From: Haliea sp.
GTDB taxonomy: Bacteria > Pseudomonadota > Gammaproteobacteria > Pseudomonadales > Halieaceae
Direction: 5' to 3'
Assembly (NCBI GenBank): GCA_002862465.1
Contig: PKDD01000176.1
Span: 1 to 36,164 of the forward strand
DNA length: 36,164 nt
The notes below the pieces were generated by a model that saw only the letters and a list, made by a program, of their open reading frames with translations, was not told where the DNA came from and searched no databases. Position 1 is the stretch's first letter, and each line of letters starts with the position of its first letter. Both the position numbers and the translations under genes were made by a program. This document shows, in pieces, positions 1 to 21,497 of this stretch.

Positions 1-1
1 C

Positions 2-445
2 GCATTGGCGGCGGAGCAGGTCGGCGGCTGTCAACAGTTGCTCGACATGACAGTGGCTTATACCAGCGAGCGAGTGCAGTTTAACCGCACCATTGCGAGT
101 TATCAGGCGGTGAAACATAAGGCGGCCGATATGATGCTGAGAGTCGAAGTTGCGCGTTCCGCGATTTATTACGCCGCCTGCGTGGCTCAAGAGGCATTGG
201 AAGGCGGTCCTCTTTCGCTCGAGTTGAGTGAGGCGGCGAGTGTCGCAAAGTCCTATTGCTCCGATGCCTACTTTGCCGTCGCCGGTGATGCACTGCAGTT
301 GTTTGGAGGCGTCGGCTTTACGTGGGAATACGACGTCCACCTATATTTAAAGCGTGCAAAATCCTCGGAGCATTTTCTGGGCAACGGTGTCTTTCACCGC
401 GAGCGTTTGGCTCGGATGCTGCTTGATGAGGGAGAAGAATCGTGA
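2..445 (+). CDS. acyl-CoA dehydrogenase, C-terminal part (5' end outside window)
   Basis: The frame is open from the first bases of the window, so this is the C-terminal ~147 residues of a longer protein. It matches the C-terminal helical domain of acyl-CoA dehydrogenases: a segment reading SERVQFNRTIASYQAVKH (flavin/tetramer-contact helix) and a later FGGVGFTWEYDVHLYLKRAK segment. Family members are FAD enzymes that introduce the alpha-beta double bond into an acyl-CoA in the cytoplasm. The usual MCAD-type catalytic Glu motif (YEGT) is not seen near the C-terminus, where the sequence reads HFLGNGVF. The stop overlaps the GTG start of the next dehydrogenase by 4 bp, so the two are translationally coupled. 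Paired, dissimilar dehydrogenase genes like this typify alpha2beta2 heteromeric enzymes in steroid catabolism; that assignment is inference. Confidence 0.9.
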   Translation, partial: ALAAEQVGGCQQLLDMTVAYTSERVQFNRTIASYQAVKHKAADMMLRVEVARSAIYYAACVAQEALEGGPLSLELSEAASVAKSYCSDAYFAVAGDALQLFGGVGFTWEYDVHLYLKRAKSSEHFLGNGVFHRERLARMLLDEGEES

Positions 446-1644
446 AATTAAGTTTTAGTGCCGAAGACGAGCAATTTCGTCAGGAGATTGCCAATTGGTT
501 GCAGGTCAATCTGACCGGTGAATTCGAGAAGTTGCGCTTTCGCGGTGGGCCCGGAGATGAGCATACGTTTCCCGAGGAACGGAAAGTGTGGGAGCAGAAG
601 CTGGCCGAGGGTGGTTGGACCTGCGTTGGCTGGTCAAAGGAATATGGTGGCCGAGGCTGTTCGATTGAGCAGCAGGTGATCTTTTTTGAAGAATACGCGC
701 GTGCTGGCGCTCCGGGACGCGTCGGACACATTGGTGAGGGTTTGGCTGGTCCTACCGTTATCGCCTTCGGTACCGATGAGCAGAAAAAGAAATACCTGCC
801 CGGCATCGTTGCGGGCACTGAACTGTGGTGTCAGGGTTACTCTGAGCCCAGTGCGGGATCGGACTTGGCTAACGTCAAAACCAAGGCGCGTTTTGATAAA
901 GAGCAGAATAAGTGGATTATTAATGGGCAGAAGGTTTGGACGTCGCTAGCCCATGAGTCTGACTATTGTTTTGTCATCGCTCGGACCGACCTCGATTCAG
1001 TGGCTCACAAAGGTCTAGGCTTTTTCCTGATAAAAATGGATCAGCCCGGTATTGATGTGCGTCCGATAGAGCAAATAACGGGGACCTCAGAATTCAATGA
1101 AGTGTTCTTCGATGAGGCGCACTGTGAGGCAGATGATATTGTCGGCGCGCCTGGTGAAGGGTGGAAAGTGGCTATGGGGCTGCTGGGCTTTGAGCGGGGT
1201 GTGTCAACTCTTGGCCAGCAAATGCAATTTCAAAATGAATTAGATGAGGTTATCCGTGTCGCCAAGCGTAATGGCGCCGCACAGGATCCGGCTATTCGTC
1301 AGCGCATTGCGGAGGCGCACGCAGAGCTTAAAATTATGCGTTATAACTCTATGCGCATCCTGTCTGGTCAAAGTGGCAGCGACGGCGGACTGCAAAAGGA
1401 AGCCCTTATTTACAAATTATTCTGGTCAACTTGGCACCGCGGTCTCGGTGAACTGGCGATGGATGTGCTGGGTCCTGAGTGTGAAATTCTCGAGGACGGC
1501 CCTTATGCATTGAGTCGCCTGCAATCCATGTTTTTGTTTGTGCGCTCCGACACGATTTACGGGGGTACTAACCAGATTCAACGCAATATCATATCCGAGC
1601 GCGGCTTGGGCATGCCCAAAGAGCCCAAAGGTGCGGCTAAGTAA
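442..1644 (+). CDS. acyl-CoA dehydrogenase, second subunit of a likely heteromeric pair
   Basis: A 400-residue, full-length acyl-CoA dehydrogenase. The N-terminal helical domain is followed by the FAD/substrate beta domain (GYSEPSAGSDLANVKTKA at about 132-149, then NGQKVWTSLAH) and the C-terminal helical domain. The usual C-terminal catalytic Glu is absent: the motif reads IYGGTNQIQ instead of YEGTxQIQ. A Glu at about residue 251 in GFERG sits where isovaleryl-CoA-dehydrogenase-type enzymes carry their base, so the subunit may still be active. The GTG start at 442 overlaps the preceding stop. An SDR and a thiolase follow in the same direction, giving a beta-oxidation-like operon. The substrate cannot be read from sequence; a cyclic or steroid-derived CoA ester is inferred from the gene pairing. 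Confidence 0.93.
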   Translation: MKLSFSAEDEQFRQEIANWLQVNLTGEFEKLRFRGGPGDEHTFPEERKVWEQKLAEGGWTCVGWSKEYGGRGCSIEQQVIFFEEYARAGAPGRVGHIGEGLAGPTVIAFGTDEQKKKYLPGIVAGTELWCQGYSEPSAGSDLANVKTKARFDKEQNKWIINGQKVWTSLAHESDYCFVIARTDLDSVAHKGLGFFLIKMDQPGIDVRPIEQITGTSEFNEVFFDEAHCEADDIVGAPGEGWKVAMGLLGFERGVSTLGQQMQFQNELDEVIRVAKRNGAAQDPAIRQRIAEAHAELKIMRYNSMRILSGQSGSDGGLQKEALIYKLFWSTWHRGLGELAMDVLGPECEILEDGPYALSRLQSMFLFVRSDTIYGGTNQIQRNIISERGLGMPKEPKGAAK

Positions 1645-1663
1645 CCGGTTAAAAGGACCCATT

Positions 1664-2455
1664 ATGAATTTGAAATCGCCCGAATATGTACCCGGTCACG
1701 ACCTAATCAAAGGAAAGTCAGTCTTGATAACCGCTGCAGCCGGGGCTGGAATTGGCTTTTCCGCTGCTACTAAGGCTGCAGAGGAGGGTGCTCGCGCCAT
1801 TGTGCTTAGTGATATTCATGAGACTCGATTGGCGACCGCAGTCGATAAGCTGAAGCAAGAGTCTGGTCTCGCTGAAGTCTATGGCAAGGTGGGCAATGTG
1901 GCGCTTGAAGACGACGTGCGTTCGCTGGTGGATTTTGCGGAAGACACTATGGGCGGCGTTGATGTCCTGATCAATAATGCAGGCCTAGGCAGTTCAAAAT
2001 CATTGATAGAGATGGAAGACGATGAGTGGAATCGGGTAATTGATGTGACACTTAACGGCACCATGCGCATGACCCGTTACATGATGAGGGTTATGAAAGC
2101 ACGCGGGCAAGGTGGTGTAATTGTCAATAATGCGTCTGTGCTGGGCTGGCGAGCACAAAAAGAGCAAGCGCACTATGCCGCAGCTAAGGCCGGGGTGATG
2201 GCACTGACCCGCTGCGCTGCGTTAGAGGCTGCTGACTTTAATGTGCGTATCAATGCCGTTGCGCCGTCCATTGTGTTGCATCCGATGTTGCGCAAGTCTG
2301 CCTCGGAAGAATTATTGGCTGAGCTGGAGGCTAAAGAAGCCTACGGGCGTGCCGCGGAGGCTTGGGAAGTCGCCAACGTCATGATGTTTTTGGCGTCGGA
2401 TTATTCGAGCTACATGACGGGCGAGATAGTGCCGGTTTCAAGTCAACGCGGTTAA
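1664..2455 (+). CDS. SDR-family NAD(P)-dependent dehydrogenase
   Basis: A 263-residue short-chain dehydrogenase/reductase. The cofactor loop is ITAAAGAGIGF (about 22-32), with Ala in place of the usual TGxxxGIG Thr-Gly. The NNAG motif is at about 104-107 and the catalytic Ser148, Tyr161 and Lys165 (YAAAK) are all present. I chose the ATG at 1664 over starts further upstream because AAAGGA lies just before it and the family-like N-terminus (PEYVPGHDLIKGK) begins there; longer versions would overlap the dehydrogenase gene. It lies 19 bp after that gene and before a thiolase, so it probably oxidises or reduces a hydroxyacyl intermediate in the same pathway. The N-terminus and AAAGxGIG loop recall actinobacterial IpdF-type SDRs of steroid C/D-ring degradation, but this is from memory only. 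Confidence 0.9.
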   Translation: MNLKSPEYVPGHDLIKGKSVLITAAAGAGIGFSAATKAAEEGARAIVLSDIHETRLATAVDKLKQESGLAEVYGKVGNVALEDDVRSLVDFAEDTMGGVDVLINNAGLGSSKSLIEMEDDEWNRVIDVTLNGTMRMTRYMMRVMKARGQGGVIVNNASVLGWRAQKEQAHYAAAKAGVMALTRCAALEAADFNVRINAVAPSIVLHPMLRKSASEELLAELEAKEAYGRAAEAWEVANVMMFLASDYSSYMTGEIVPVSSQRG

Positions 2456-9699: not shown

Positions 9700-11406
9700 T
9701 TGGAACAGCACACAGTACTGATCATATCTGAGAACAAGGCTGACCACCTTATTCTGGCCGCCTGCCTAGCGCGCGCTACACCACTGAGATTCGTGCTCGC
9801 GGCTCCAGACGCCATGGAGCGTCCGCTGGAAGCGCTGTTGGATCCTATGATAGATGCGGTGATCATGGGCCATGGGGCTCAAACTGAATATTTGTTACGG
9901 TTGGCAAACAAGAACAATGTCGCAGCCCCACTTATTTTAATGTTGGATGAGTCGGAGCAGACTTTTTTTAGTCAGTTGCGCGAACTAGGCGCTCAAGACT
10001 ATCTCACCCGCGGTCAATTACAGGATACTCTGGTTCACCGCATCCTTGATTACAATATCCAGCTTAAGCAGGCGCGTGAGCAAATTCGACAGTTGTCCAA
10101 CCGCGATACCCTGACTGGCGTGCTGAATCGAGTAGGTTTTCGTGCTCATTTGGAGCGTGCAATGGATCGCTCTAAACGGCATCAGTTCAACACAGCGCTG
10201 CTTTATATCAACATTGATCAATTTACCAACATCAACGACCATTATGGCGAGTCTGATGGCGATGTTATGATCAAGTCGATATCGCAACGTCTGATCAACA
10301 AAATGCGCAGCACTGACAGCATAGCGCGACTGGGCGGTGATGAGTTTGCCATCGTGCTCGAAGATGTAAATTCGACTGCCGACGTCGAACTCATTACCGG
10401 AAAAATGCTTAAATCTATTTCTGCTCCGATGCTTCTCAGTGACCAGCAGGTAGCGGTTGAGGCGAGTATAGGTGTTGCAATTTATCCGAAAGACGGAGGC
10501 GACTTTTCAGATCTGGTGGAACACGCCCGCCGCGCGATGCAGCAGGCTAAGAGTATTGCGGGCGGTCGTTTCGTCTGTTACTCCGAGAACCTTTCCTTTG
10601 ATGTCGAGGGCAATAGTTCACTCACTGCTGAATTGCGCACAGCCGTGCGAAAAAATCAGTTTGAGCTGCATTATCAGCCTCGAATAGACCTTGCCTCTGG
10701 GAATCTGGTGGGACTAGAGGCCCTACTGCGCTGGAATCATCCCGAGCGCGGTCTCCTACTGCCCGGGGATTTTATAGCTGCTTGCGAGGATATGGGGCTC
10801 ATGAAAGCGATCGGCTATCAAGTGATTCAGCATGCTTGCAATGCCCAGATTTGGCTAGAAGAACAGGGTATGAAAAATGTGGATGTTGCAGTGAACATTT
10901 CATTTTCCCAGATTGAGGACGACCCTTTTGTTGAGATTGTCAAAGATATTATCGTACGCAGCGGTGCAAATGGCGCGAAAATTGAGTTCGAATTAACAGA
11001 GTCTACTATTCTACAAAGCTCTGTCGAGATAAAGTCACGTATGAACGAACTGCGCGAGCTTGGGATCTCCTTCTCACTGGATGATTTTGGCACAGGCTTT
11101 TCTCAGCTTAACCACCTTACAGAGTTACCAATTTCTGCGCTGAAGATAGATGCCTGTTTCGTGCGAGACCTTCCTCATAATGAAAACCAAGAAGCGGTCT
11201 GCTGCATGATTATTGAGATGGGGCGTCGACTGGGTCTGGTGGTTGTGGCGGAGGGCGCAGAAACGCATGAGCAAATCCAGTTTCTGCGCGACCATCAATG
11301 CCACCAGGTACAGGGGTTTTATTACAGTCCGGCAATTCCGTTGCAGAATCTACCGCGTTTTGTGCAGGAACACGGTGTGCTGCGTCGCGAACAATTATTG
11401 TCCTGA
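9700..11406 (+). CDS. degenerate receiver - GGDEF - EAL protein (c-di-GMP turnover)
   Basis: 568 residues. Residues ~4-120 look like a response-regulator receiver without its chemistry: the acidic pair after strand 1 reads SEN and the phospho-acceptor Asp is replaced by Gly57 (AVIMGHG). It is therefore probably not phosphorylated. The GGDEF domain has an intact GGDEF at 212-216 and a product-inhibition I-site RxxD at 203-206, exactly five residues upstream. The EAL domain has EAL at 340-342 plus the conserved NISFSQ, ELTES, DDFGTG, LKID, AEGAE and QGF motifs. Both diguanylate cyclase and phosphodiesterase activity are therefore possible on sequence grounds. The TTG start is chosen because AGGA lies 7 nt upstream and an in-frame stop is close by. 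A second GGDEF-EAL gene follows ~240 bp on. Confidence 0.93.
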   Translation: MEQHTVLIISENKADHLILAACLARATPLRFVLAAPDAMERPLEALLDPMIDAVIMGHGAQTEYLLRLANKNNVAAPLILMLDESEQTFFSQLRELGAQDYLTRGQLQDTLVHRILDYNIQLKQAREQIRQLSNRDTLTGVLNRVGFRAHLERAMDRSKRHQFNTALLYINIDQFTNINDHYGESDGDVMIKSISQRLINKMRSTDSIARLGGDEFAIVLEDVNSTADVELITGKMLKSISAPMLLSDQQVAVEASIGVAIYPKDGGDFSDLVEHARRAMQQAKSIAGGRFVCYSENLSFDVEGNSSLTAELRTAVRKNQFELHYQPRIDLASGNLVGLEALLRWNHPERGLLLPGDFIAACEDMGLMKAIGYQVIQHACNAQIWLEEQGMKNVDVAVNISFSQIEDDPFVEIVKDIIVRSGANGAKIEFELTESTILQSSVEIKSRMNELRELGISFSLDDFGTGFSQLNHLTELPISALKIDACFVRDLPHNENQEAVCCMIIEMGRRLGLVVVAEGAETHEQIQFLRDHQCHQVQGFYYSPAIPLQNLPRFVQEHGVLRREQLLS

Positions 11407-11646: not shown

Positions 11647-13437
11647 ATAAGCCATCAAGCTAAAATTCTTGTTGTTGACGATGATCAGAACGTTCGTCTG
11701 CTGACACGCCAGTGTCTGGAAGCAGAGGATATGATGGTCGTTGAAGCTTCTAATGGTCATGAAGCGATAGACATTTTTGTCATTGAAAGACCTGATCTGG
11801 TGTTCATGGATGTAGAGATGCCTGGAATGACGGGTCTTGACGCCTGTCAACGTATCCGAGAGTTGCCTCAGGGTAAAACTATTCCTATTATGATTGTGAC
11901 GGGTTCGGAAGATCGTGAGTCCATAGATAAAGGGTTTGACGCTGGGGCAACTCAGTACAAAACAAAGCCGGTCAACTGGTCATTGTTAGGCCGCGATGTA
12001 CAATACATGCTCCGCGCTAGCTCTGCGTTTAATTCGTTGAAGCGACAGGAGGATCGACTTCGGCACCTCGCTTACTATGACCCCCTTACAAGCCTTCCCA
12101 ATAGACGGAGTTTCAATGAGCAGTTGACTCGTCTGCTGAAGCGTAGTCAACGGCGTGAGACCGTAGCCGCACTGCTTTTTATCGATTTAGATCATTTTAA
12201 GCGGATTAACGATTCGATTGGCCACGCTCGTGGGGATAGTCTGCTGGTGGAAATAGCCAGAAGACTCACGATGGAACTGCGCGAAGAGGATTCGATTAAT
12301 TACTTGTCGGAAAATAGTGCAGCGGATGATAAGGAATCCGCTGCTGCTGAAATTTCTCGATTAGGTGGCGACGAATTCACGGTTGTTTTATCAGATGTGG
12401 ATAATCTGTCTGATATTGAGAAGGTCGCGAAGCGTATTTTGGATTGTCTCTCGCAGCCAATACCTCTGCAGTCACATAACCCTGTGGTGACACCCAGTAT
12501 TGGAATTGCGTTATACCCTCAAGATGGTAAAGATCCAGATATATTGATTCGCAATGCTGATACAGCCATGTATTTTGCCAAGGCAGAAGGCCGAGCTTGC
12601 TACCGATTTTATAATGAGGAGATGAATGCCAAGGCGGTAGAAAAACTAAAAATGGAGGAAGAACTGCGTGACGCGCTGCGTCACTCAGAGCTAGAGCTGC
12701 GCTACCAGCCTCAGGTGAATTCAATAACCGGTGAGGTGGTCAGCATGGAGGCACTTGTCCGCTGGAAGCATCCCAAGCGCGGCATGGTATCGCCAGAAGA
12801 GTTTATTCCGATAGCTGAGAGCACGGGACAAATAATCGAATTGGGTGAGTGGGTAATGGAGGAGGTCGCCAGGAATTGCTTATACTGGGATACGCTCGGC
12901 CTTAGTGCATTCCGTGTTTGTGTCAATATTTCTCCGTTACAGTTTAATCAGGGTAACTTGGCTGATTGGATAGCGGACTTTCTCGCTAAATCTGGTTTGC
13001 CGCCAGAGCGCCTAGAACTCGAGCTTACAGAAAGCGCGATTATGAATGATGCCGAAACTAATATCGCAAAGTTGCGTACATTGAAGTCCCTCGGTATTGA
13101 CCTTGCTGTAGATGACTTTGGTACAGGCTATTCCTCTCTTAGTTATCTAAAGCGTTTTCCGATCGACACACTTAAAATCGACCACAGCTTCGTTAATGAC
13201 TTGAACACACCCGATGGGGCTGCGATTGTTGATGCTATTCTTGGACTCGCGAAAGCACTCAATCTAAGAGTGATTGCAGAGGGCATAGAGAGTGAAAGCC
13301 AATTGGCGTATCTAGTGGGAAAAGGGTGCGACCTATTGCAAGGCTTTTACTTCGCTCGACCGATCTATCCTGAGGATGTGCCCAATATGTTGCAAACGGA
13401 CTTTACTCAACAAATTCAAAAAGTCATGGGCAATTAA
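11647..13437 (+). CDS. receiver - GGDEF - EAL response regulator (c-di-GMP turnover)
   Basis: 596 residues if started at ATA 11647. A complete receiver domain is encoded: KILVVDDDQNVR starts at 11662, the phospho-acceptor is Asp55 (LVFMDVEMPG), and KPVNW is the conserved Lys region. The GGDEF motif is intact at about 240-244. The RxxD (REED) that should sit 5 residues upstream is separated from it by ~24 residues of acidic/Ser-rich insertion. The EAL domain is complete (EAL ~368-370, NISPLQF, ELTES, DDFGTG, LKID, AEGIE, QGF). No ATG, GTG or TTG exists between the in-frame stop at 11632 and the receiver; the first canonical start, ATG 11731, would remove strand 1 and the acidic pocket. ATA 11647 (giving MSHQAKILVVDDD) or ATT 11665 are the options. 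The subtilase gene starts 20 bp after the stop, suggesting cotranscription. Confidence 0.88.
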   Translation: MSHQAKILVVDDDQNVRLLTRQCLEAEDMMVVEASNGHEAIDIFVIERPDLVFMDVEMPGMTGLDACQRIRELPQGKTIPIMIVTGSEDRESIDKGFDAGATQYKTKPVNWSLLGRDVQYMLRASSAFNSLKRQEDRLRHLAYYDPLTSLPNRRSFNEQLTRLLKRSQRRETVAALLFIDLDHFKRINDSIGHARGDSLLVEIARRLTMELREEDSINYLSENSAADDKESAAAEISRLGGDEFTVVLSDVDNLSDIEKVAKRILDCLSQPIPLQSHNPVVTPSIGIALYPQDGKDPDILIRNADTAMYFAKAEGRACYRFYNEEMNAKAVEKLKMEEELRDALRHSELELRYQPQVNSITGEVVSMEALVRWKHPKRGMVSPEEFIPIAESTGQIIELGEWVMEEVARNCLYWDTLGLSAFRVCVNISPLQFNQGNLADWIADFLAKSGLPPERLELELTESAIMNDAETNIAKLRTLKSLGIDLAVDDFGTGYSSLSYLKRFPIDTLKIDHSFVNDLNTPDGAAIVDAILGLAKALNLRVIAEGIESESQLAYLVGKGCDLLQGFYFARPIYPEDVPNMLQTDFTQQIQKVMGN

Positions 13438-13457
13438 TCTCGGACAATTCAGCGCGA

Positions 13458-15470
13458 ATGAAGTTCTTTAAGAACATAATAACAGTTCTGAGCTCTTTGC
13501 TTTTCTGTGCTTCTGTACTGGCTATTGACCCGGATGTTCTGCAGGTAATGTTACAGGGTTCCTCATCGGTTGAGCTCTCGGCACTAGTGGAAGAGAAGGG
13601 GGGGACGGTCACCCACGAGCTCCCCTTAATCAACGCAGTTGGCGCTAAAGTTGACCGTGATCAGCTGCAGCAAATACTGGAATCTTCGCTGGTCACACGC
13701 CACCTTGATGATCTCGCTGCGCCAGAAAAACTGATTGGGGTGCCGGAAGAGGCAGAAGTTTGCAAGGTGCGGGGTCATATCGAACTGGACTTCACGCCAG
13801 ACGGTATAGAGTGGCGCCTTTATAATAAGCTCACCTCGCCTGCCTCAATGTTGAGGCTGGAACTGACTTGGCCTGCCACGCTGGGTCATGTGACCAATAT
13901 TTCTATAGCTAATGCCACCGTTGCGCCAAATCTTTATGATGCGGCGGCGTTAGGTACTTTGGCGATTGATTTTCCCGCCGCTCAAAGGCCGCAATTAAAG
14001 ACGCTAGATACGCTGGCGGTTAGCTTTGAGCGGCCAACATTCGAAGCAGTGCAGTCACTGTTGCGTCAACGCGATTTTACTCTTAAGGCTGTTTTTACAC
14101 AGGGGTGTGCCACTGACCTCGTGCCGGGCTATGAGAGTAATGATGAAGACTTTTATTACAACAGTGCGGCTGGGGTCGATGCGCTGCATCTTCAGGGCAT
14201 TACGGGCAAAGGCATTACCGTGGCGGTGGTGGACTCTGGGTTGTGGGAGCATGACGCACTGGTTAACGACACAACAGGCAGGAATAGGGTGCTAGCCCGA
14301 TACGATGCGCTAACAGATACCCTCAATAGTGAAGTAGTTGACGAGAGTGGTCATGGCACCCATATGTCGAGCATAATCGCGCATAGTGGGAAAACGACAC
14401 GTAGTGGCGGTCCAGCCGGTTCCTATAAAGGGGTGGCGCCTGACGTTAATCTGGTGGCGGTCAAAGTGCTTGACCGGCAGGGACTGGCGCATTTGCTTGA
14501 GATTGTCCGTGCAATCCAGTGGGTCGTCGACAATCGTGAAAAATATGATATTCGTATTCTCAATCTGTCCTTTGCTCAAACGCCCCGTTGGCCTTACTGG
14601 GAGGACCCGGTAAATCAGGCGGTAATGCAGGCTTGGAAGGCCGGTATTACGGTCGTGGCGGCCGCCGGAAATGAGGGCCCCGGAGTGGAGACGATTGGAT
14701 CACCGGGGAATGTTCCCGCTATTATCACGGTAGGGGCGGTCACAGATTCTTGGACGCCCGATAACCGCGATGATGACTATATACCCGACTTCTCATCACG
14801 TGGCCCGACGCCTAGCGGGCATGTAAAACCTGATATTGTATCTTTGGGCGGTCATATGACGGGTCTTATCCGTCCAGAGTCGGCTTTGGCCTTGGAACAG
14901 CCTGAGGACATGCTCCGAACCGGGGAGTTCGTTTCGACGGGTTCCTCGCAGGCCACTGCACTTGTATCGGGGATTGTTGCACTACTCTTGCAATTGGAGC
15001 CGGGCCTCACACCAGATGATGTCAAATGTATGCTAATTACCAGTGCTGAGCCCGCCATAAATAGCGATGGCTTGCTCGCGTACAGTCCGTTTCAGCAGGG
15101 CCACGGTTATGTGACAGCCTCCAGAGCGTTGCTTTTTGGCCGCAATGACTGTGATGGGCGTGGCTTAGGTCTGATGGCGGATACTGAGGATGAGGAGCAC
15201 TCGTATGGGCCGGCTATTATTAAGGCGGATGGCAGTCCCGGTTTGCCCGAGTTTAGGAACAGGGTTTCGCCTGAACCCAGCGAAAAAGGCTTCAGTGAAA
15301 ATCGTCGATGGGGCGTAAAAGATCATATAGAACGGGGCTCCGGGTTGCCTGCAAGCTCGGGGGCCTCAAATGGATTGCCCTTTGATTGGCAAGAGCTTTA
15401 TCTGCAGGAGAAGCGCGTTATCGACAGTCTCGCCCGTAGCGCCTTGCCCGAGCCTGCTTCTTCGCCCTAG
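13458..15470 (+). CDS. exported S8 family (subtilisin-like) serine protease
   Basis: 670 residues with a signal peptide (cleavage likely after SVLA, residue ~22). Residues ~26-85 resemble an I9-type inhibitor propeptide (VEEKGGTVTHELPLINAVGAK). An unrecognised beta-rich stretch of ~130 residues (~95-225) with two cysteines follows. The catalytic domain has Asp259 (VAVVDSG), His299 (DESGHGTHMS), oxyanion Asn405 (AAAGNEGP) and Ser497 (STGSSQATALVSG). The Ser motif departs from the usual GTSMA but keeps the Ser and helix. The last ~110 residues are a Ser/Pro/Glu-rich tail without a known sorting motif. The protein should act in the periplasm or outside the cell. It starts 20 bp behind a c-di-GMP regulator gene and is followed by an exported repeat protein, a possible substrate (inference). 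Confidence 0.92.
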   Translation: MKFFKNIITVLSSLLFCASVLAIDPDVLQVMLQGSSSVELSALVEEKGGTVTHELPLINAVGAKVDRDQLQQILESSLVTRHLDDLAAPEKLIGVPEEAEVCKVRGHIELDFTPDGIEWRLYNKLTSPASMLRLELTWPATLGHVTNISIANATVAPNLYDAAALGTLAIDFPAAQRPQLKTLDTLAVSFERPTFEAVQSLLRQRDFTLKAVFTQGCATDLVPGYESNDEDFYYNSAAGVDALHLQGITGKGITVAVVDSGLWEHDALVNDTTGRNRVLARYDALTDTLNSEVVDESGHGTHMSSIIAHSGKTTRSGGPAGSYKGVAPDVNLVAVKVLDRQGLAHLLEIVRAIQWVVDNREKYDIRILNLSFAQTPRWPYWEDPVNQAVMQAWKAGITVVAAAGNEGPGVETIGSPGNVPAIITVGAVTDSWTPDNRDDDYIPDFSSRGPTPSGHVKPDIVSLGGHMTGLIRPESALALEQPEDMLRTGEFVSTGSSQATALVSGIVALLLQLEPGLTPDDVKCMLITSAEPAINSDGLLAYSPFQQGHGYVTASRALLFGRNDCDGRGLGLMADTEDEEHSYGPAIIKADGSPGLPEFRNRVSPEPSEKGFSENRRWGVKDHIERGSGLPASSGASNGLPFDWQELYLQEKRVIDSLARSALPEPASSP

Positions 15471-15769
15471 CACCCGACGGTTCGCAGTCTCATTAACCCG
15501 ATAGGGTCAACGCCAAGCTGTTCCCAGTGACGCCTACTGAGTAATGTGTCTGTCATTGCTTTGCTTAATTTCACTGCGTTTCATTGTTTTACCAACATGC
15601 TCAAAACATACCCCAAAAAGGGCATATGGATGCCTTCATTTCTTCTGTCTCGAATCGTATAACTACAAAAGCTGATTGAAACTTGGTTTGAATCAGGTCC
15701 CCGATAAGGGGTTGTTTGGAGAATTGACTCCTAAAATCGATTCTGTAATTAGAAAGGCGGGAAGAGATT
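15471..15769. other. intergenic region upstream of the repeat-protein gene
   Basis: 299 bp with no credible gene. TTGACT at 15724-15729 is a good -35-like hexamer, but the best -10-like match (TGTAAT near 15744) is too close, so no promoter is called. CCCC-GATAA-GGGG at 15699-15711 could form a small hairpin. GGCGGGAAGAG just before 15770 is the ribosome binding site. Confidence 0.5.
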
Positions 15770-16351
15770 ATGAACATAAAAACGATTGGATACGCTGGAT
15801 TCGCAAGTATGGCATTGGCATTGCTGGCACCTTCCATAAATGCCGCAGATACTGTGCAGGCAACAGATAAATCAGGCAGTTTAGTGCATCGAGTGAGTCA
15901 CGCTCTAGCTGCCGAAGCACGATACACGGCACCCGTATCATCCTCTGGGAACAAGTGGGCCGTAAAGCCGCTGTCGAACGATAGCAAAGCGATCTGGGCT
16001 GAGTCAGGTAAAGCACAGACCGGTTACAAGTGGGGCGAATCGAATGGTTCAGTGGATCGCAGTCAGCCGATTAGTAATACGTCTGAGCAGGCGGGTAACC
16101 GCTGGGGTCGTCGCAATGTGACTGAGCAGGCGGGTAACCGCTGGGGCCGTCGCAATGTGACCGAGCAGGCGGGTAACCGCTGGGGCCGTCGCAATGTGAC
16201 CGAGCAGGCGGGTAACCGCTGGGGCCGTCGCAATGTGACCGAGCAGGCGGGCAACCGCTGGGGCCGTCGCAATGTGACTGAGCAGGCGGGCAACCGCTGG
16301 GGCCGTCGCAATGTGACTGAGCAGGCGGGTAATCGCTGGGGTCGTCGTTAA
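15770..16351 (+). CDS. small exported protein of tandem 13-residue cationic Trp/Arg repeats
   Basis: 193 residues of unrecognised family. Residues 1-25 are a signal peptide (cleavage predicted at SINA-ADTV). Residues ~26-105 are a low-complexity region with related, degenerate motifs (SGNKWAVK, TGYKWGES). From 16085 the unit EQAGNRWGRRNVT repeats six times in full, plus a seventh copy stopping at WGRR at the C-terminus. Each unit carries three Arg, one Glu and one Trp, so the mature protein is strongly basic. The ribosome binding site (GGGAAGAG) supports ATG 15770. A strong terminator follows 33 bp after the stop, so the gene ends its transcription unit. Function is unknown: options include a secreted matrix or polyanion-binding protein, or a precursor cut at the dibasic Arg-Arg by a protease such as the S8 enzyme upstream. 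Confidence 0.8.
   Translation: MNIKTIGYAGFASMALALLAPSINAADTVQATDKSGSLVHRVSHALAAEARYTAPVSSSGNKWAVKPLSNDSKAIWAESGKAQTGYKWGESNGSVDRSQPISNTSEQAGNRWGRRNVTEQAGNRWGRRNVTEQAGNRWGRRNVTEQAGNRWGRRNVTEQAGNRWGRRNVTEQAGNRWGRRNVTEQAGNRWGRR
16085..16348 (+). repeat. 39-bp in-frame tandem repeat, 6 full copies + 30-bp partial
   Basis: Copies begin at 16085, 16124, 16163, 16202, 16241, 16280 and 16319 (partial). They are contiguous with no spacers, and every difference between copies is synonymous (GGT/GGC, ACT/ACC, AAC/AAT, CGC/CGT). The array lies wholly inside the coding sequence. Open frames on the opposite strand across it are by-products of the 39-bp period. Confidence 0.97.
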
Positions 16352-16383
16352 AGTCGAGGCCATCCCTTTTGTCTCGCTTTAAC

Positions 16384-16417
16384 AAAAATGCTTCCTGCGC
16401 CTGGAAGCATTTTTTTT
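16384..16417 (+). terminator. rho-independent terminator after the repeat-protein gene
   Basis: A stem of at least 8 bp (ATGCTTCC / GGAAGCAT), extended by A-T pairs, closes a 7-nt loop and is followed by an unbroken run of T. It lies 33 bp after the repeat-protein stop. Because of the A-rich 5' side it could also act on the minus strand for the convergent DUF3604 gene. Confidence 0.9.
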
Positions 16418-16599
16418 ATGTCACTGTAACGCTCTCTCCTTGTTCTACAACTTAGCTAACAGCAAGCTCCAGATCTCAGGCACCATTGTTTCCCACGCTA
16501 TACGGGCACGCTCTCAATCACGGCGTAATCGGATTGCTAGCCGCCCCTTGTCGGCGTCATAGGAAAGAACATTGGTGACGCCTGCGGTTTCGTCTGTGT

Positions 16600-18486
16600 T
16601 TAAAAGCCCGTGACAGTATTCAGCGGTTGATACCAGATTGAGGAGGTATAAGCACGCTCCTGAATGGTGTCCGGTTGATCTGCGGCATGATCCATACCTA
16701 AAGCAATCGCATCCAGTAGGGAATGACGAGCGGTAGGAATCTGCAGCACTCTGATGTAGTAAAATGCAGACTGCTCTGGATCAAACTGAGCGTCTGTCCA
16801 CACCGCCGCGAGTTGTGCTGCGCCAATGCGGTTGTCGACTTGTCCGGTTTTCATGTTCACCGTATTACCCACAGCGGGCAGGCTACCGTCAGCGTTTAAT
16901 GGACGTTCATCTGACCAGGCGATATTAAATATTTGTTCATGAGATTGCCCATCGGCATCCAGCCAGCCTTTCACCATTTGAATGCGGTCAAGATTCGCGC
17001 CCTCAGGATCTTTCGTGGCCAAAACAATAAAAGAGGGTGTCTCAGTCTGCTGGAGTTCGCCGCCCATCGGCACGCCGCGCGCGGTGGCAAGCGTGTGCAA
17101 GTCTGCATTTTTAAGATCCGCCTGAGTAAAGTCGGGGCCACCGTAAAATTGCACAGCGATGCGCGGTCCGGTAGTGGCATAGACCTCTCTGCGCTCTAGC
17201 GCATCCATTATATCGGAACGTGTGTTGCTCTCTGCCCATACAGCAGCCATGCCAGATGCCGACATGGCCCAGCCTGAAGATCCGGGGCCGTCCTCGTTAA
17301 AACTCTGCGTTTTGTTTACTGGAATCGAGTCAGTGGCCAACTTGCCATGGAAATTGTCCTCCTCTGCCGACGATAGAGCAGTGTGTGAATCGGTTGAGCC
17401 AATCACTCCTAACATATACGGGTTTTGTCCTAAATTGGCTTCTAGCTCAAGTCCCTGCTTTAACGCTTCTCTGACGAAATCCCCACGCTGAGGATTGTAC
17501 TCAGTCCAGCGGCGCTGTATGTAGTAGGGATATATTTCAAAATCAGCGAATGCATCTTCTGGGGAAAATTTAGAGTGAGTCTCCGAATCGCCTTTTATTT
17601 GCGTGACTTCTGCAATGCGTTCCCATTTACTGCGCAGCGCTATATAGGCTTGGTCGAATGGCTTACCGCGCAAGCTTTCTCTCGAAAACATGTAACCTTT
17701 GGAAATATTTGAGTTGTGAGGAATGGCGGTGAATCGTGCACTCGTTTCTGCACTGGTTTTTTCCAGCCAGCTCCATAGATCTTCCGGATAGGGACTGTCG
17801 TCAAGACCAAAGGGATCATACAGCTGAGCGGTGGGGGCATCGCTATCGGTAATGACCACCCGGTGCAGATTGGCACCGCCAGGTATGGAACTCCACTCCC
17901 AGCCGATCAAAGCGCTGAACTCACCGGGCTCGTTGTATTTATCAGCGGCGTCAGTCACGGTGCGCCAAGTATCCACTTCAATCTGCTTCGGCATGGGTAG
18001 AATACCCAAGTCACTGTTTTCTATACTGCTTTGCTCTGCGTCCTGCAGAGGCGTTAGGTCTGGATCAGGCAGCACGCGGACAAACAGGTCTCGTCCACTG
18101 CCAGTGTCTATTGCGCGATTTAACAGGAAAGCTGCAACCCACGCCTTAATCTTATCAATAGGACCTAGGTTCGACGTGTCCACGCCGTTCCGGTGGATGT
18201 TGCGAATCGCACCGAGAAATTCCGCGTGGTCTGAGACGACAAGAAAGTCCAGCGGCGTGCCTATCTGCACCCGCGCTTTATGATAGGGGTGAATAACCGG
18301 CATGCCGCGGGCATAGCGATACGCAGTCTCTGGGCCTGCGGTAAGGTTATTGTTGGCATAGGCGTCTGAAGAATATGTCGTGTGCAGATGGGTGTCACCC
18401 CAAAGCAGCTTTTTCCCAGTTGCGTGTGTGCTAAGACTTGTAAAGGCGAACGCTACTGTTAATAAAAAAATAACACTGTTATGCAT
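16600..18486 (-). CDS. exported DUF3604 family protein
   Basis: 628 residues from ATG 18486, preceded by a good ribosome binding site (GAGGGG, 7 nt spacing) and beginning with a signal peptide (MHNSVIFLLTVAFAFTSL, cleavage predicted at THA-TG). Longer in-frame starts lack both. DUF3604 signatures are clear: LLWGDTHLHTTYSSDAY near 27-43, LDFLVVSDHAEFLG near 79-92, IGWEWSS, and IGSTDSHTALS. The His/Asp pattern (DTHLH, SDHAE, DSH) resembles PHP-type metal-dependent phosphoesterase sites, so a periplasmic metal-dependent hydrolase is likely, with unknown substrate. DUF3604 proteins are common in marine Proteobacteria and are often annotated only by this name. The gene is monocistronic and convergent with the repeat-protein gene. 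Confidence 0.92.
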   Translation of the reverse strand: MHNSVIFLLTVAFAFTSLSTHATGKKLLWGDTHLHTTYSSDAYANNNLTAGPETAYRYARGMPVIHPYHKARVQIGTPLDFLVVSDHAEFLGAIRNIHRNGVDTSNLGPIDKIKAWVAAFLLNRAIDTGSGRDLFVRVLPDPDLTPLQDAEQSSIENSDLGILPMPKQIEVDTWRTVTDAADKYNEPGEFSALIGWEWSSIPGGANLHRVVITDSDAPTAQLYDPFGLDDSPYPEDLWSWLEKTSAETSARFTAIPHNSNISKGYMFSRESLRGKPFDQAYIALRSKWERIAEVTQIKGDSETHSKFSPEDAFADFEIYPYYIQRRWTEYNPQRGDFVREALKQGLELEANLGQNPYMLGVIGSTDSHTALSSAEEDNFHGKLATDSIPVNKTQSFNEDGPGSSGWAMSASGMAAVWAESNTRSDIMDALERREVYATTGPRIAVQFYGGPDFTQADLKNADLHTLATARGVPMGGELQQTETPSFIVLATKDPEGANLDRIQMVKGWLDADGQSHEQIFNIAWSDERPLNADGSLPAVGNTVNMKTGQVDNRIGAAQLAAVWTDAQFDPEQSAFYYIRVLQIPTARHSLLDAIALGMDHAADQPDTIQERAYTSSIWYQPLNTVTGF

Positions 18487-19337
18487 TAAAAACCCCTCGG
18501 GTGTTCTAGTGTTGTTCATAGAGTATGCGAGGGTAACGTGCAACGTGCAACGAGTACTCGTCTTGCTTCTGATTATGGCTGCTGCCAACGCCAGCGGGTA
18601 TTCACTTCCAAAGCAATAGTCCAGCTAATAATTGTACGGCTGATTATCATCAAAATAAGAATCTTGAGATGTCACAAAGTTGGATCAACCGTGACTGTTT
18701 TGATAACGGTCGCGACGACAACAAAATAAAAGCGTAAATGGATGTTAACCAATATTCTGTTTAGTAATCCCGCGACTTTGGATGCGCAGGGCAGTTTGGC
18801 TGCGCATAACGACACGCTTACTAGGCTGAACTCGATTCAAATTGTTTAAGGTCCGCCCCATGATATAACCAATCGTTATTTTTAATTATAAAGAAATATC
18901 ATGCAGTTATTTCTTCTGCGCTTGGTTTTAATGCCTATACTGAAAATATCGCCAAATTAGAAATTTACAACATCGTAGATGTCTCGAATAGACTTTTTCG
19001 ATGTCTGGGTGCGTCTAGGAACTGACCTGTAGTGCTGCCGTCCCATTAAAAGTCGCTTCGATGGATGTCTCGGAAAATGATTCAGTCAGGCGGAGAGCGC
19101 GTTAGGAGCGGCCTAGCGCGAGGGTATGCCCACTTTTAATACCTCGCAACATTATTATTTTGAACAAATTGCCCGGAACGTTGTCGGAACAAAAACGAGT
19201 GAAGGGGTGTTGCGGGCATCAATCTGCGCGGACACCCCAATACGGATACACCACTGCCCAGTTTCATTCACGGGCACAATAAGGATTGAACTGGGAAGCT
19301 ACGGCACAGTTTTCGGTTCCCTTGCTAGGAGAATGCG
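18487..19337. other. long gene-free region between divergent exported-protein genes
   Basis: About 850 bp with no convincing gene; one open frame (19126-19494) overlaps the following gene in another frame and lacks protein-like composition. Two perfect inverted repeats are present: TGCGCAG / CTGCGCA (18783-18789 with 18800-18806) and AAGAAATA / TATTTCTT (18891-18898 with 18908-18915). The stretch 18860-18960 is AT-rich and may hold promoters. AGGAGA at 19327-19332 is the ribosome binding site of the next gene. Confidence 0.55.
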
Positions 19338-21497
19338 ATGCGTCCCCAAGAGAAGAAGGATTACGACTTTACGGAACCGTTTGGAAAGTTTGAAAGGCAT
19401 GCTGCTATCGGGTCCAGCGGCCATGGCAAAGGAAATGCCGCGCGGCAACTTAAAGTTATTGCGTCACCCGATTGGCGCAGCATCACCGCAATGAGTGTTC
19501 TCGCTGCCGCAATACTGACGGTGTGGGCGGTGCCCTCACAGGGCGCCAACGAAAACCAAGGCGCTGTCTCCGTTGCCGTCGATCTCTTCGACGATTGGGG
19601 ATCTGGAGCCTGCGGCGAGGGGCTGGTGACGAACAATGGCTCAGCCAGCACGCAGTGGGAAGTCAATGTTGATCTGCCCGGATCGGTGACCAGTTATTGG
19701 AATTCTGAGATTAGTCCTTCGGGTAATTCAGACCTCGATGAGAGTGACCTGTCGCAGTCTTGGCGCGTGACTGGGGTGGCGTGGAATAAGATTTTGGCGC
19801 CTGGGGCCTCAACGAATTTTGGTTTTTGCTTCGATCGGGGACAGGCGTCACAGATAACGTCTACCGATGATCCGGACATGCCTATGGCGGGAGGATCGCA
19901 TCCGCATCCGGTCGCAGACAGCGAGTTTATCGATTTGGCGACTTTCGGCCTGTCAAACGGCAGTGATCACACCGGTCATGACGGGCTTGTCGGCGGGAGG
20001 ACCGCTATTACTACGGAGGCGCTGCTGGCCTACAATCATCTGCGCGCGTTTGTTGGACTTGCGCCGGCTACTATTAACGATGTTGGGGCTTGGGCCTTTG
20101 CAAATGGCTTGACCAATAACGCGCAGGCATGGGGTAATGACCAGATGGGCGTTGGCCTGTGGTATGCGATGCAGGGCGCTAAGGTCGGCTGGATGGCCGA
20201 CGATTGGTTTGATCCGCAGGTTGTTGCCGATATCGAACGAACAGCGAGGCTGGGTTCTGCCGCAGACGTGATGGCGATGGTAGCTGCCTATGGTCATGAC
20301 GGTTTTGCGCAGTATCTGAATGATAATGGCCTCGCGCAGACGTTCATCAATACCCTCAAGATGGAACCGCACTATGCTGGGTGGATGCATGATCGCGCGC
20401 ACGGCATGTTGTCGATTGAAAATGTGGCTATTGCTCACGACGTGAATCATCTCACGGTACTCAGCCATGATCAGATGCAGCCGTTTATGAATGATACTTG
20501 GGATTGGCCGCAGTGGCCGGCACTGGAAGTGTCACCTGCTCGCGTGCTGGAATACTTTCAGAGTATGGTCGTGCTCGGTGATCCATTAGGATTTCATCTT
20601 GAGGATTTCGCTGCTCCCGCAACACAAGACAACCCAGCCGTTACACCAACTGCTCCAGAAGATGGTGTCGTCACAGTTCCGGTGCAGCCGGACGCGCCGC
20701 ACTCAGATGGTTCGGAGATGGATATGCCGGGACCGCATCCGCATCCGGTCGGAGAAAATGGGTTTATCGATTTGGGGACCTTTGGCCTGTCAAATGGCAG
20801 TGATCACACCGGTCATGACGGGCTTGTCGGCGGAAGGACCGCTATTACGACGGAGGCGCTGCTGGCCTACAATAACTTACGCGCTTTCGTTGGACTTGCG
20901 CCTGTAAGCCTCGATGAGGTCGGCGCATGGGCGTTTGCAAACAACCTGACTAACAACACGCAGGCCTGGGGCACGGATCAGATGGGCGTTGGCCTTTGGT
21001 ATGCAATGCAGGGCGCCAAAGTAGGATGGATGGCTGATGATGGGTTTGATCCCCAGGTTGTCGCCGATATTGAGCGCACAGCACGGTTGGGCTCTGCCGA
21101 GGATGTGATGGCCATGGCGGTTGCCTATGGCCACGAAGGTTTTGCCACTCACCTCATCGAGAATGGTCACGTCAAGGCGTTCATTAGTACCCTAAAAATG
21201 GAGCCACACTACGGCGGGTGGATGCATGATCGTGCGCATGGTTGGCTGTCGATTGAAGGTGTGGCTATTGCGCATGACGTGAACCATCTCACGGTTCTCA
21301 GTCATGATCAGATGCAGCCATTTATGAATGACACTTGGGATTGGCCGCAGTGGCCAGCGTTGGAAGTATCGCAGGCCCGCGTACTGGAATATTTCCAAAG
21401 CATGGTGGTACTCGGTGATCCACGAGGGGATCATTTGAACGATATCTCCGGTCCGCCATTTGAAAGCCCCGTCGTTCCAATGCCACCGGGGTGCTAA
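19338..21497 (+). CDS. exported CBM2 protein with a duplicated domain of unknown function
   Basis: 719 residues. A long N-region of ~50 residues precedes a hydrophobic core (MSVLAAAILTVWAV, ~52-65) with cleavage predicted at SQGA-NENQ. I keep ATG 19338 because AGGAGA is ideally placed; ATG 19491 at the core has no ribosome binding site. Residues ~75-172 match carbohydrate-binding module family 2: WEVNVDLPG, several Trp, AWNKILAPG and FGFCFD, with Cys92 and Cys164 able to pair. A module of about 240 residues then occurs twice, at ~187-427 and ~466-706, in perfect register (279-residue offset, no gaps). It contains SDHTGHDGLVGGRTAITTEALLAYN, GLWYAMQGAKVGWMADD and AHDVNHLTVLSHDQMQPFMNDTWDWPQWPALE. 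I do not recognise it; its His/Asp-rich motifs could bind metal or form a catalytic site. A polysaccharide-directed extracellular role is inferred from CBM2. Confidence 0.85.
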   Translation: MRPQEKKDYDFTEPFGKFERHAAIGSSGHGKGNAARQLKVIASPDWRSITAMSVLAAAILTVWAVPSQGANENQGAVSVAVDLFDDWGSGACGEGLVTNNGSASTQWEVNVDLPGSVTSYWNSEISPSGNSDLDESDLSQSWRVTGVAWNKILAPGASTNFGFCFDRGQASQITSTDDPDMPMAGGSHPHPVADSEFIDLATFGLSNGSDHTGHDGLVGGRTAITTEALLAYNHLRAFVGLAPATINDVGAWAFANGLTNNAQAWGNDQMGVGLWYAMQGAKVGWMADDWFDPQVVADIERTARLGSAADVMAMVAAYGHDGFAQYLNDNGLAQTFINTLKMEPHYAGWMHDRAHGMLSIENVAIAHDVNHLTVLSHDQMQPFMNDTWDWPQWPALEVSPARVLEYFQSMVVLGDPLGFHLEDFAAPATQDNPAVTPTAPEDGVVTVPVQPDAPHSDGSEMDMPGPHPHPVGENGFIDLGTFGLSNGSDHTGHDGLVGGRTAITTEALLAYNNLRAFVGLAPVSLDEVGAWAFANNLTNNTQAWGTDQMGVGLWYAMQGAKVGWMADDGFDPQVVADIERTARLGSAEDVMAMAVAYGHEGFATHLIENGHVKAFISTLKMEPHYGGWMHDRAHGWLSIEGVAIAHDVNHLTVLSHDQMQPFMNDTWDWPQWPALEVSQARVLEYFQSMVVLGDPRGDHLNDISGPPFESPVVPMPPGC
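19896..21455 (+). repeat. intragenic duplication of a ~720-bp domain (unit offset 837 bp)
   Basis: The two units are about 19896-20618 and 20733-21455, joined by a Pro/acidic linker. Long stretches are identical at the protein level (for example the GSDHTGHDGLVGGRTAITTEALLAYN and AHDVNHLTVLSHDQ segments), while many codons differ. The duplication is therefore not brand new and the sequence has been held by selection. Confidence 0.93.

Follow-up and report, generated by a model that had tools for sequence, protein, structure and literature searches.

Organization of the Trp-repeat locus

The window, that is the whole stretch of 36,164 nt that we analysed, contains at 15770..16351 (+ strand, stop codon included) a gene for a Trp-repeat protein of 193 aa, which is present in the ORF list and has same-genus as well as family-wide relatives. 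A secreted-looking protein made of 13-residue Trp repeats had been proposed in a sequence-only reading of this DNA; it is real, as judged from the ORF, the start of the protein and Tandem Repeats Finder. By eye, the N-terminus MNIKTIGYAGFASMALALLAPSINA (15770..15844, + strand) resembles a signal peptide, which gives the protein a secreted look, and comparable hydrophobic starts occur in 14 aligned rows. It is followed by a leader (15845..16082, + strand) with a VHR[VI][SN]HxLA...Y motif, in which V39, H40, R41, H44, A47, Y52, G60 and W63 are invariant in the alignment of 14 same-genus rows. The GNKW/GYKW motifs reported earlier ahead of the array are present in this leader; by nature they are degenerate units common to relatives. 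The array itself (16083..16348, + strand) comprises seven cores GNRWGRR with the linker NVTEQA: SEQAGNRWGRR forms the first copy and is followed by six copies of NVTEQAGNRWGRR, all identical. In the whole window Tandem Repeats Finder detected this array and no other (16083-16347, period 39, 6.8 copies, 96% matches), and the stretch has one match within its own genome (G000). The stop codon lies immediately 3′ of WGRR, as the sequence-only reading had stated. Three antisense ORFs of 82 to 104 aa cover the array on the minus strand (window 16049-16385); with a repeat length of 39 bp, a multiple of three, these frames stay open.

Upstream of the repeat gene we found an imperfect inverted repeat, TACCCCAAAAAGGGCA (15609..15624, + strand), that is conserved in the spacers, and two promoter-like elements, CTTCAT and TATAAC, spaced by 18 nt (15634..15663, + strand), which were derived from the consensus of 51 aligned spacers (those >240 nt, out of 65). 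The sequence TRCCCCAANNNGGGYA has a single match in genome G000. The inverted-repeat pattern occurs 12 times in eight genomes compared to three times for a control pattern; 7 of the 12 sites are the promoter of the repeat gene, one per genome in seven of the eight genomes, and in G000 it is the sole site. G044 carries no site of this pattern, and a simple sigma-70 scan yielded no site in 15300-16700. Downstream, a hairpin with a T run resembling an intrinsic terminator is located at 16384..16414 (+ strand; 3 such sites found versus 1.4 expected), inside the span ending at 16417 that had been noted before. A search for RNA elements or riboswitches gave no Rfam match at gathering score in 12000-20000.

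The repeat gene is preceded on the same strand by a gene for an S8 subtilase of 670 aa (13458..15470; Peptidase_S8, 6.4e-48), a response regulator with GGDEF and EAL domains (11701..13437) and a second GGDEF-EAL protein (9700..11406), the latter two identified by Pfam; a second GGDEF-EAL protein is found in many but not all loci. On the other side a DUF3604 gene follows on the minus strand (window 16600-18588), and its like is present in G016 and G017; since it occupies the place where loci outside the genus hold Reg_prop genes, a local rearrangement is suggested. Further downstream (window 19338-21497) lies a 719-aa protein with a CBM_2 domain and, by eye, two similar halves of ~200 aa each. 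A relative of it in L032 (about 1-1500, minus strand) shows tandem repeats of PVEEPN type, again by eye.

Distribution of the repeat family

The sequence-only reading knew no family with this unit, and the window protein indeed gave nothing above the curated cut-off in Pfam or NCBIfam. When three relatives were compared with Pfam, G053 alone exceeded a cut-off (PF19678, 27.1 versus 26.9, with no single stretch passing), which we take as a repeat artefact. In a profile search the family was matched in 67 of 140 genomes of its host family, covering 20 of 28 genera; the host family was judged from named relatives to be Halieaceae. Within the genus, matches were obtained in 16 of 18 genomes: 14 have the gene, in some cases truncated by a contig end, and G016 and G017 contain one-unit remnants, the one in G016 beside a transposase-like frame (by eye) at L017/L033. 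A scan of named genomes with a GY[KR]WG-type pattern returned 22 loci. The genera are Haliea, Chromatocurvus, Pseudohaliea, Seongchinamella, Parahaliea, Kineobactrum, Sediminihaliea and Pseudohalioglobus, all Halieaceae by taxonomy; the remaining records are two labelled Halieaceae only and one labelled Gammaproteobacteria only. A search of 390 genomes of the order gave 16 matches, every one of them in the Halieaceae-type family and none in other families. A viral origin was also considered and rejected: 14 pattern matches in viral contigs led to no confirmed relative.

Anatomy of the unit and selection on its copies

From 184 distinct units we obtained the consensus [GA][YFS][KR]WG[ILV]R[SN]x[AS][DE]Q[AST]. 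Each unit combines a seven-residue core, most commonly GYKWGIR and in the window GNRWGRR, with a looser linker that has a near-invariant Gln (178 of the 184 distinct units, with Trp as the anchor of the count). For a count of core and linker variation we dropped the first unit of each array and used 13-residue units only, excluding G003, G008 and G011 with their 12-residue units. Within a genome the core differs in a fraction of only 0.000-0.007 of unit pairs (49 genomes, 351 units), compared to 0.30-0.67 of pairs between genome consensuses when Trp is left out of the seven positions; within genomes, the linker varies at 0.11-0.23, Gln excepted. The unit is made up of a uniform, species-specific core and a linker.

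Copies in the window had been said to differ only at synonymous positions, which holds for the five window units compared (pS 0.129, pN 0), and it had been left undecided whether selection or recent expansion was the cause. Pooled over 55 arrays, first units dropped, between-unit pS is 0.335 and pN 0.030, a ratio of 0.09, although locating the units by Trp favours conservation at that one residue. We found pN below pS in 53 of the 55 arrays; the other two show no differences at all. The units of G042 have a pS of 0.925 and yet are alike as protein. Such large synonymous differences at low pN rule out recent expansion as the sole cause of the identical copies: the copies are held by selection.

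A conserved leader with a variable number of repeats, proposed earlier as a sign of function, is what the relatives show; among 51 complete proteins the terminal run counts between 3 and 21 units. Draft contigs often stop within the array (L034, L035, L036, L037, L086, L089 and others), and copy numbers from such assemblies are unreliable because the contigs end inside the array. The C-terminal end of the protein is a core (Trp plus two or three residues) in 49 of the 51 complete proteins. A dibasic pair after the Trp region, which the sequence-only reading had listed as part of the unit, is no defining trait: it terminates only eight of the 51, all of them in the genus of the window and in G008 restricted to the last unit; elsewhere the ends read WGIR, WGRG, WGRS or WRIN. 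We therefore rejected a kexin-type dibasic multi-peptide precursor as a trait of the family. A multi-core peptide precursor as such is among the live readings.

AlphaFold2 modelling of the repeat protein (monomer prediction, 20 sequences) gave a mean pLDDT of 43.4, near 30 over the array, with no strand and no fold for the array. Such a result would be expected of a substrate; as a sign of disorder, a failed prediction from 20 sequences is weak.

A closely linked subtilase partner

The subtilase scores 164 bits against Pfam PF00082 (cut-off 21.8) and has a hydrophobic start; its catalytic triad D259, H299 and S497, assigned by motif, is invariant in 21 rows. In 66 of 67 loci it directly precedes the repeat gene in the same orientation. 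In the 67th locus, G115, the contig begins inside the repeat gene, and another contig has the subtilase followed by the start of a repeat gene. Both genes are 129 to 387 nt apart in 65 loci; in G071, whose subtilase has a broken frame, the distance is 905 nt. A search with a profile of the subtilase tail yielded matches in 79 of 140 genomes, 74 of them full length and five covering the first half only, and all 67 repeat genomes are among the 74. For the seven full-tail genomes outside the 67 we found a short repeat gene in G021, contigs ending 128 to 293 nt past the subtilase in four cases, a leader and a degenerate end with an assembly gap after the subtilase in G079, and a subtilase with no array in G060. 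Losses within the genus point the same way: G005 and G006 gave no match to the subtilase or the repeat gene, and in G017 the start of the subtilase is joined to the middle of the repeat gene, an arrangement that a single deletion would produce. In G016 a contig end cuts the subtilase after 317 residues, and the repeat remnant lies elsewhere. The partnership of repeat protein and subtilase is well supported.

The subtilase tail contains a motif that resembles the repeat unit, RWGVKDHIER (15306..15335, + strand), of which W, G and Glu are invariant in 39 of 39 tails. As the pattern WG..xH[IVL]E it is present in 65 of 66 subtilases that are split from their repeats (the miss is G071), and in 59 of 66 subtilases the site that scores best against the unit is a WG[VIA] site. 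However, 7 of 373 ORFs taken as background also reached the median score, as did 44 of 1320 shuffled subtilases, and the tail motif does not follow the unit where units have changed to WIIR or WVIR. Given these background matches and the lack of co-change across lineages, the resemblance is suggestive only and we rejected the tail as a copy of the unit. AlphaFold2 modelled the tail with low confidence and at no confident position. The subtilase model does show an N-terminal domain, in which the order of elements (residues 27-83) is that of a subtilase pro-domain. PADLOC assigned subtilase and IetS matches to the protease; we read these as generic S8 similarity, and with no match at all for the repeat protein a defence system was discarded.

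Repeats fused to the protease in relatives

Aromatic repeats on the protein's own C-terminus were found in 16 subtilase relatives from 15 genomes: the five half-tail genomes of the family and the subtilases that are nearest beyond the family at the cut-offs used. These genes come from searches of the family, the order (2 non-Halieaceae genomes), the class (3) and the phylum (5), and all 10 of the non-Halieaceae subtilase matches have aromatic repeats. The fused repeats are diverse: FVWNDS, YFFNDS (with Phe for Trp), NYWNAG in 56 copies, YIWNMSDADNAG, FIWNLSSPENAG, YLWNNG, YLWFDA, EAFMWD, GGLIWKNSVNVD and NAVIWRLNFETD, in addition to a 17-residue EGVVWNNE unit in two copies and GDPWGGGY in three copies, the latter spaced and not tandem; periods of 6, 12 or 17 residues are represented. 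The tail motif of the split subtilases is absent from all 16 fused ones.

Synonymous changes also prevail in NYWNAG (pS 0.675, pN 0) and YLWNNG (pS 0.563, pN 0), with the restriction that a fixed motif of three residues served to locate the fused units, which left only half of a six-residue unit free to vary. In G352 the units are not alike (pS 0.286, pN 0.310); G054 and G475 are intermediate. The NYWNAG repeats have no basic residue at all; together with the non-basic core ends described above, this means that any cleavage rule differs between lineages.

Fusion in relatives is a classic sign that two separate proteins work together, and from the fused repeats we infer that the window protein is a detached repeat domain of the subtilase. 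The subtilase tree groups nine fused rows (83/90), with the fused G073 outside in an open fork, and because of this position of G073 the tree does not fix the direction of the change between cis and trans. In the fused subtilase of G475 (L211/L240, ORF 2-2404, minus strand) Trp repeats like RYLWDGAKTSEAKLS also precede the catalytic domain, so that arrays are possible at either end. G057 has two fused subtilases (L207, L208) with different repeat tails; in the tree the second clusters with fused subtilases from other families (97/93) and may have been acquired by horizontal transfer.

Reg_prop sensors and GGDEF-EAL genes next to the pair

Upstream of the subtilase-repeat pair, 65 of the 67 loci have a GGDEF-EAL cluster; in the exceptions, G102 and G115, the contig ends. 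Downstream of the repeat gene, a cluster of Reg_prop genes, defined by BLAST with three members checked by Pfam, was found in 46 of 67 loci. Of the loci outside the genus, 42 have sequence beyond the repeat gene and all of these carry a Reg_prop gene there; in the remaining 11 the contig stops no more than 2 nt further on. Within the genus such a gene is present in 4 of 14 loci; four contigs end, and six loci, including the window, are without it. Eight neighbour clusters occur in at least eight genomes: the subtilase, GGDEF-EAL, the repeat protein, Reg_prop and four outer ones. No RiPP modifying enzyme was recognised among the four inner clusters, to which the domain scans apply. The sequence-only reading had mentioned binding of polysaccharide, LPS or DNA and antimicrobial action, to which the neighbouring genes lend no special support.

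The longer sensors combine propeller, Y_Y_Y, histidine kinase, receiver and Hpt domains. An orthologue of this long hybrid kinase was found in 12 of the 18 genomes of the genus, among them G002, whose kinase served as query (54-60% identity), and G000, the genome of the window, where it lies on another contig. The search gave none in G005, G006, G016 and G017, exactly the four that lack an intact pair, nor in two genomes that do have one, G007 (87% complete) and G009 (74% complete). A short type of sensor is kept in G016 and G017 (best match the short sensor of G002, 34% and 33%) and is consequently not tied to the pair. Of the fused genes, 11 of 16 have a Reg_prop neighbour, in G535 on the other strand; eight of these sensors or their loci were confirmed with Pfam and the rest by BLAST. 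Each of the five others is at a contig end on one side and has no Reg_prop gene on the opposite side; one of these five, G054, has the GGDEF-EAL gene.

Covariation of the core with the subtilase

We compared core differences with those of the neighbouring proteins in 29 genomes. They track the catalytic domain of the subtilase with a partial Mantel r of 0.32 given the kinase domain and 0.29 given GGDEF-EAL (p 0.008 and 0.015, respectively, two of 15 partial tests with uncorrected p values). Given the kinase domain, the short sensor (r 0.30), the propeller of the long sensor (0.20) and the N-terminal part of the subtilase (0.19) also reached p<0.05; once the catalytic domain was held constant, no tracking was left for the sensors or the N-terminal part, which argues against a direct contact of core and sensor. 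The tracking of core and subtilase is weak.

A putative route from the array to cyclic-di-GMP

We regard it as an even call that the repeat protein acts as the detached tandem-repeat partner of the neighbouring, secreted-looking subtilase, with the core recognised, the array cut and the outcome sensed and passed on to cyclic-di-GMP. The seven-residue Trp core would be what the subtilase recognises. The enzyme would then cut the array, most likely in the linkers, and release many copies of a short species-specific peptide; alternatively, the array could act as a multivalent regulatory substrate. The outcome might be read by a sensor kinase of the Reg_prop type, which bears a propeller, and a phosphorelay could pass the signal to the REC-GGDEF-EAL regulator that sets cyclic-di-GMP. 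Cores that are uniform within a genome and different between species, the many copies and the end of the array at a core together favour a multi-copy substrate releasing identical peptides. A core of this kind is the pattern expected of a recognition code. With more reserve, as a tentative and somewhat doubtful proposal, we suggest a new extracellular signalling system of Gammaproteobacteria, in which a subtilase array in cis or trans would give rise to species-specific Trp-core peptides acting via Reg_prop kinases on cyclic-di-GMP. The array would there be fused in several lineages and form a separate secreted multi-copy precursor in most of the Halieaceae that have it, an arrangement that we likewise hold to be possible rather than probable.

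Alternatively, the repeats could be a binding or tethering module of the subtilase, attached in cis in some lineages but encoded in trans by most Halieaceae, with sensors that respond to the action of the protease and not to repeat peptides. Binding modules are commonly fused to the C-terminus of proteases, the core Trp is invariant and the linker Gln nearly so, and some Reg_prop sensors sense glycans. We nevertheless consider this unlikely, since a glycan binder gives no account of one core per genome that differs between species. In its more specific form the unit-like tail of the subtilase would dock on the array and the target would be a polysaccharide, the cell surface or another protein. 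The restriction of the tail motif to split subtilases speaks for docking, but the similarity of tail and unit is suggestive only and is not maintained where the unit has changed, and we judge this version unlikely, too.

The strict period, the conserved Trp and Gln, the alike units per genome and the cyclic-di-GMP neighbourhood would also suit a secreted polymer, that is an amyloid-like or solenoid matrix fibre trimmed or degraded by the subtilase under cyclic-di-GMP control. We find this improbable, as the array was modelled with very low pLDDT and no strand, though a monomer prediction is compatible with a fibre, and as one would hardly expect a matrix fibre to have versions with 6-, 12- or 17-residue periods fused to the protease. 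Likewise improbable, finally, is a decoy or inhibitor that competes for the subtilase as a substrate while the sensors read free protease activity: near-obligate one-to-one pairing, tracking of the catalytic domain and possibly self-inhibitory cis versions fit, but a conserved promoter region of its own, the window's terminator-like hairpin and arrays that reach 21 units look like a bulk product, and the subtilase already has its pro-domain-like N-terminal domain.

Comparison with known systems

A literature search at the level of titles and abstracts revealed no description of a pairing of subtilase and repeat protein, and none of the literature matches listed (the best 10 of 168 in one search) concerned a Reg_prop system with a dedicated secreted repeat protein and subtilase. 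To our knowledge, dedicated secreted proteases that process peptide signals are a familiar theme of Gram-positive bacteria and eukaryotes, with few examples from Gram-negative bacteria.

Lysostaphin has a pro-region of 13-residue tandem repeats, to which we obtained a weak profile match (PDB 6rk4, E 0.00076) and, in one relative, a match to Pfam PF25533 (E 6.5e-7) with 29.8 bits compared to a cut-off of 60. However, its repeats precede the enzyme in the same chain, and the matches look driven by the period and miss the curated cut-off. Cyanobactin precursors resemble the present case in that several short cores are encoded with a dedicated subtilisin-family protease (PatA/PatG) in the same locus. 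The protease of the window, in contrast, scores 49.6 bits against the PatA/PatG model TIGR03895 with its cut-off of 421.05, and the conserved neighbours across the loci are sensor kinases and GGDEF-EAL proteins; we therefore rejected a RiPP of cyanobactin type. The yeast alpha-factor precursor, which we compare here by description only, is likewise secreted with tandem identical signal peptides and processed by a subtilase, Kex2; the dibasic sites used there differ from the predominantly non-dibasic ends of the present family.

What the locus shows is a repeat domain that occurs in cis and in trans with its enzyme and whose copies are under strong purifying selection. The sensors scanned from these loci carry the domains of Reg_prop/Y_Y_Y hybrid sensor kinases and diguanylate cyclases, which are known systems. 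Reg_prop sensors are widespread and their ligands mostly unknown; a conserved, secreted-looking partner encoded beside them would make the question of their ligand directly testable.
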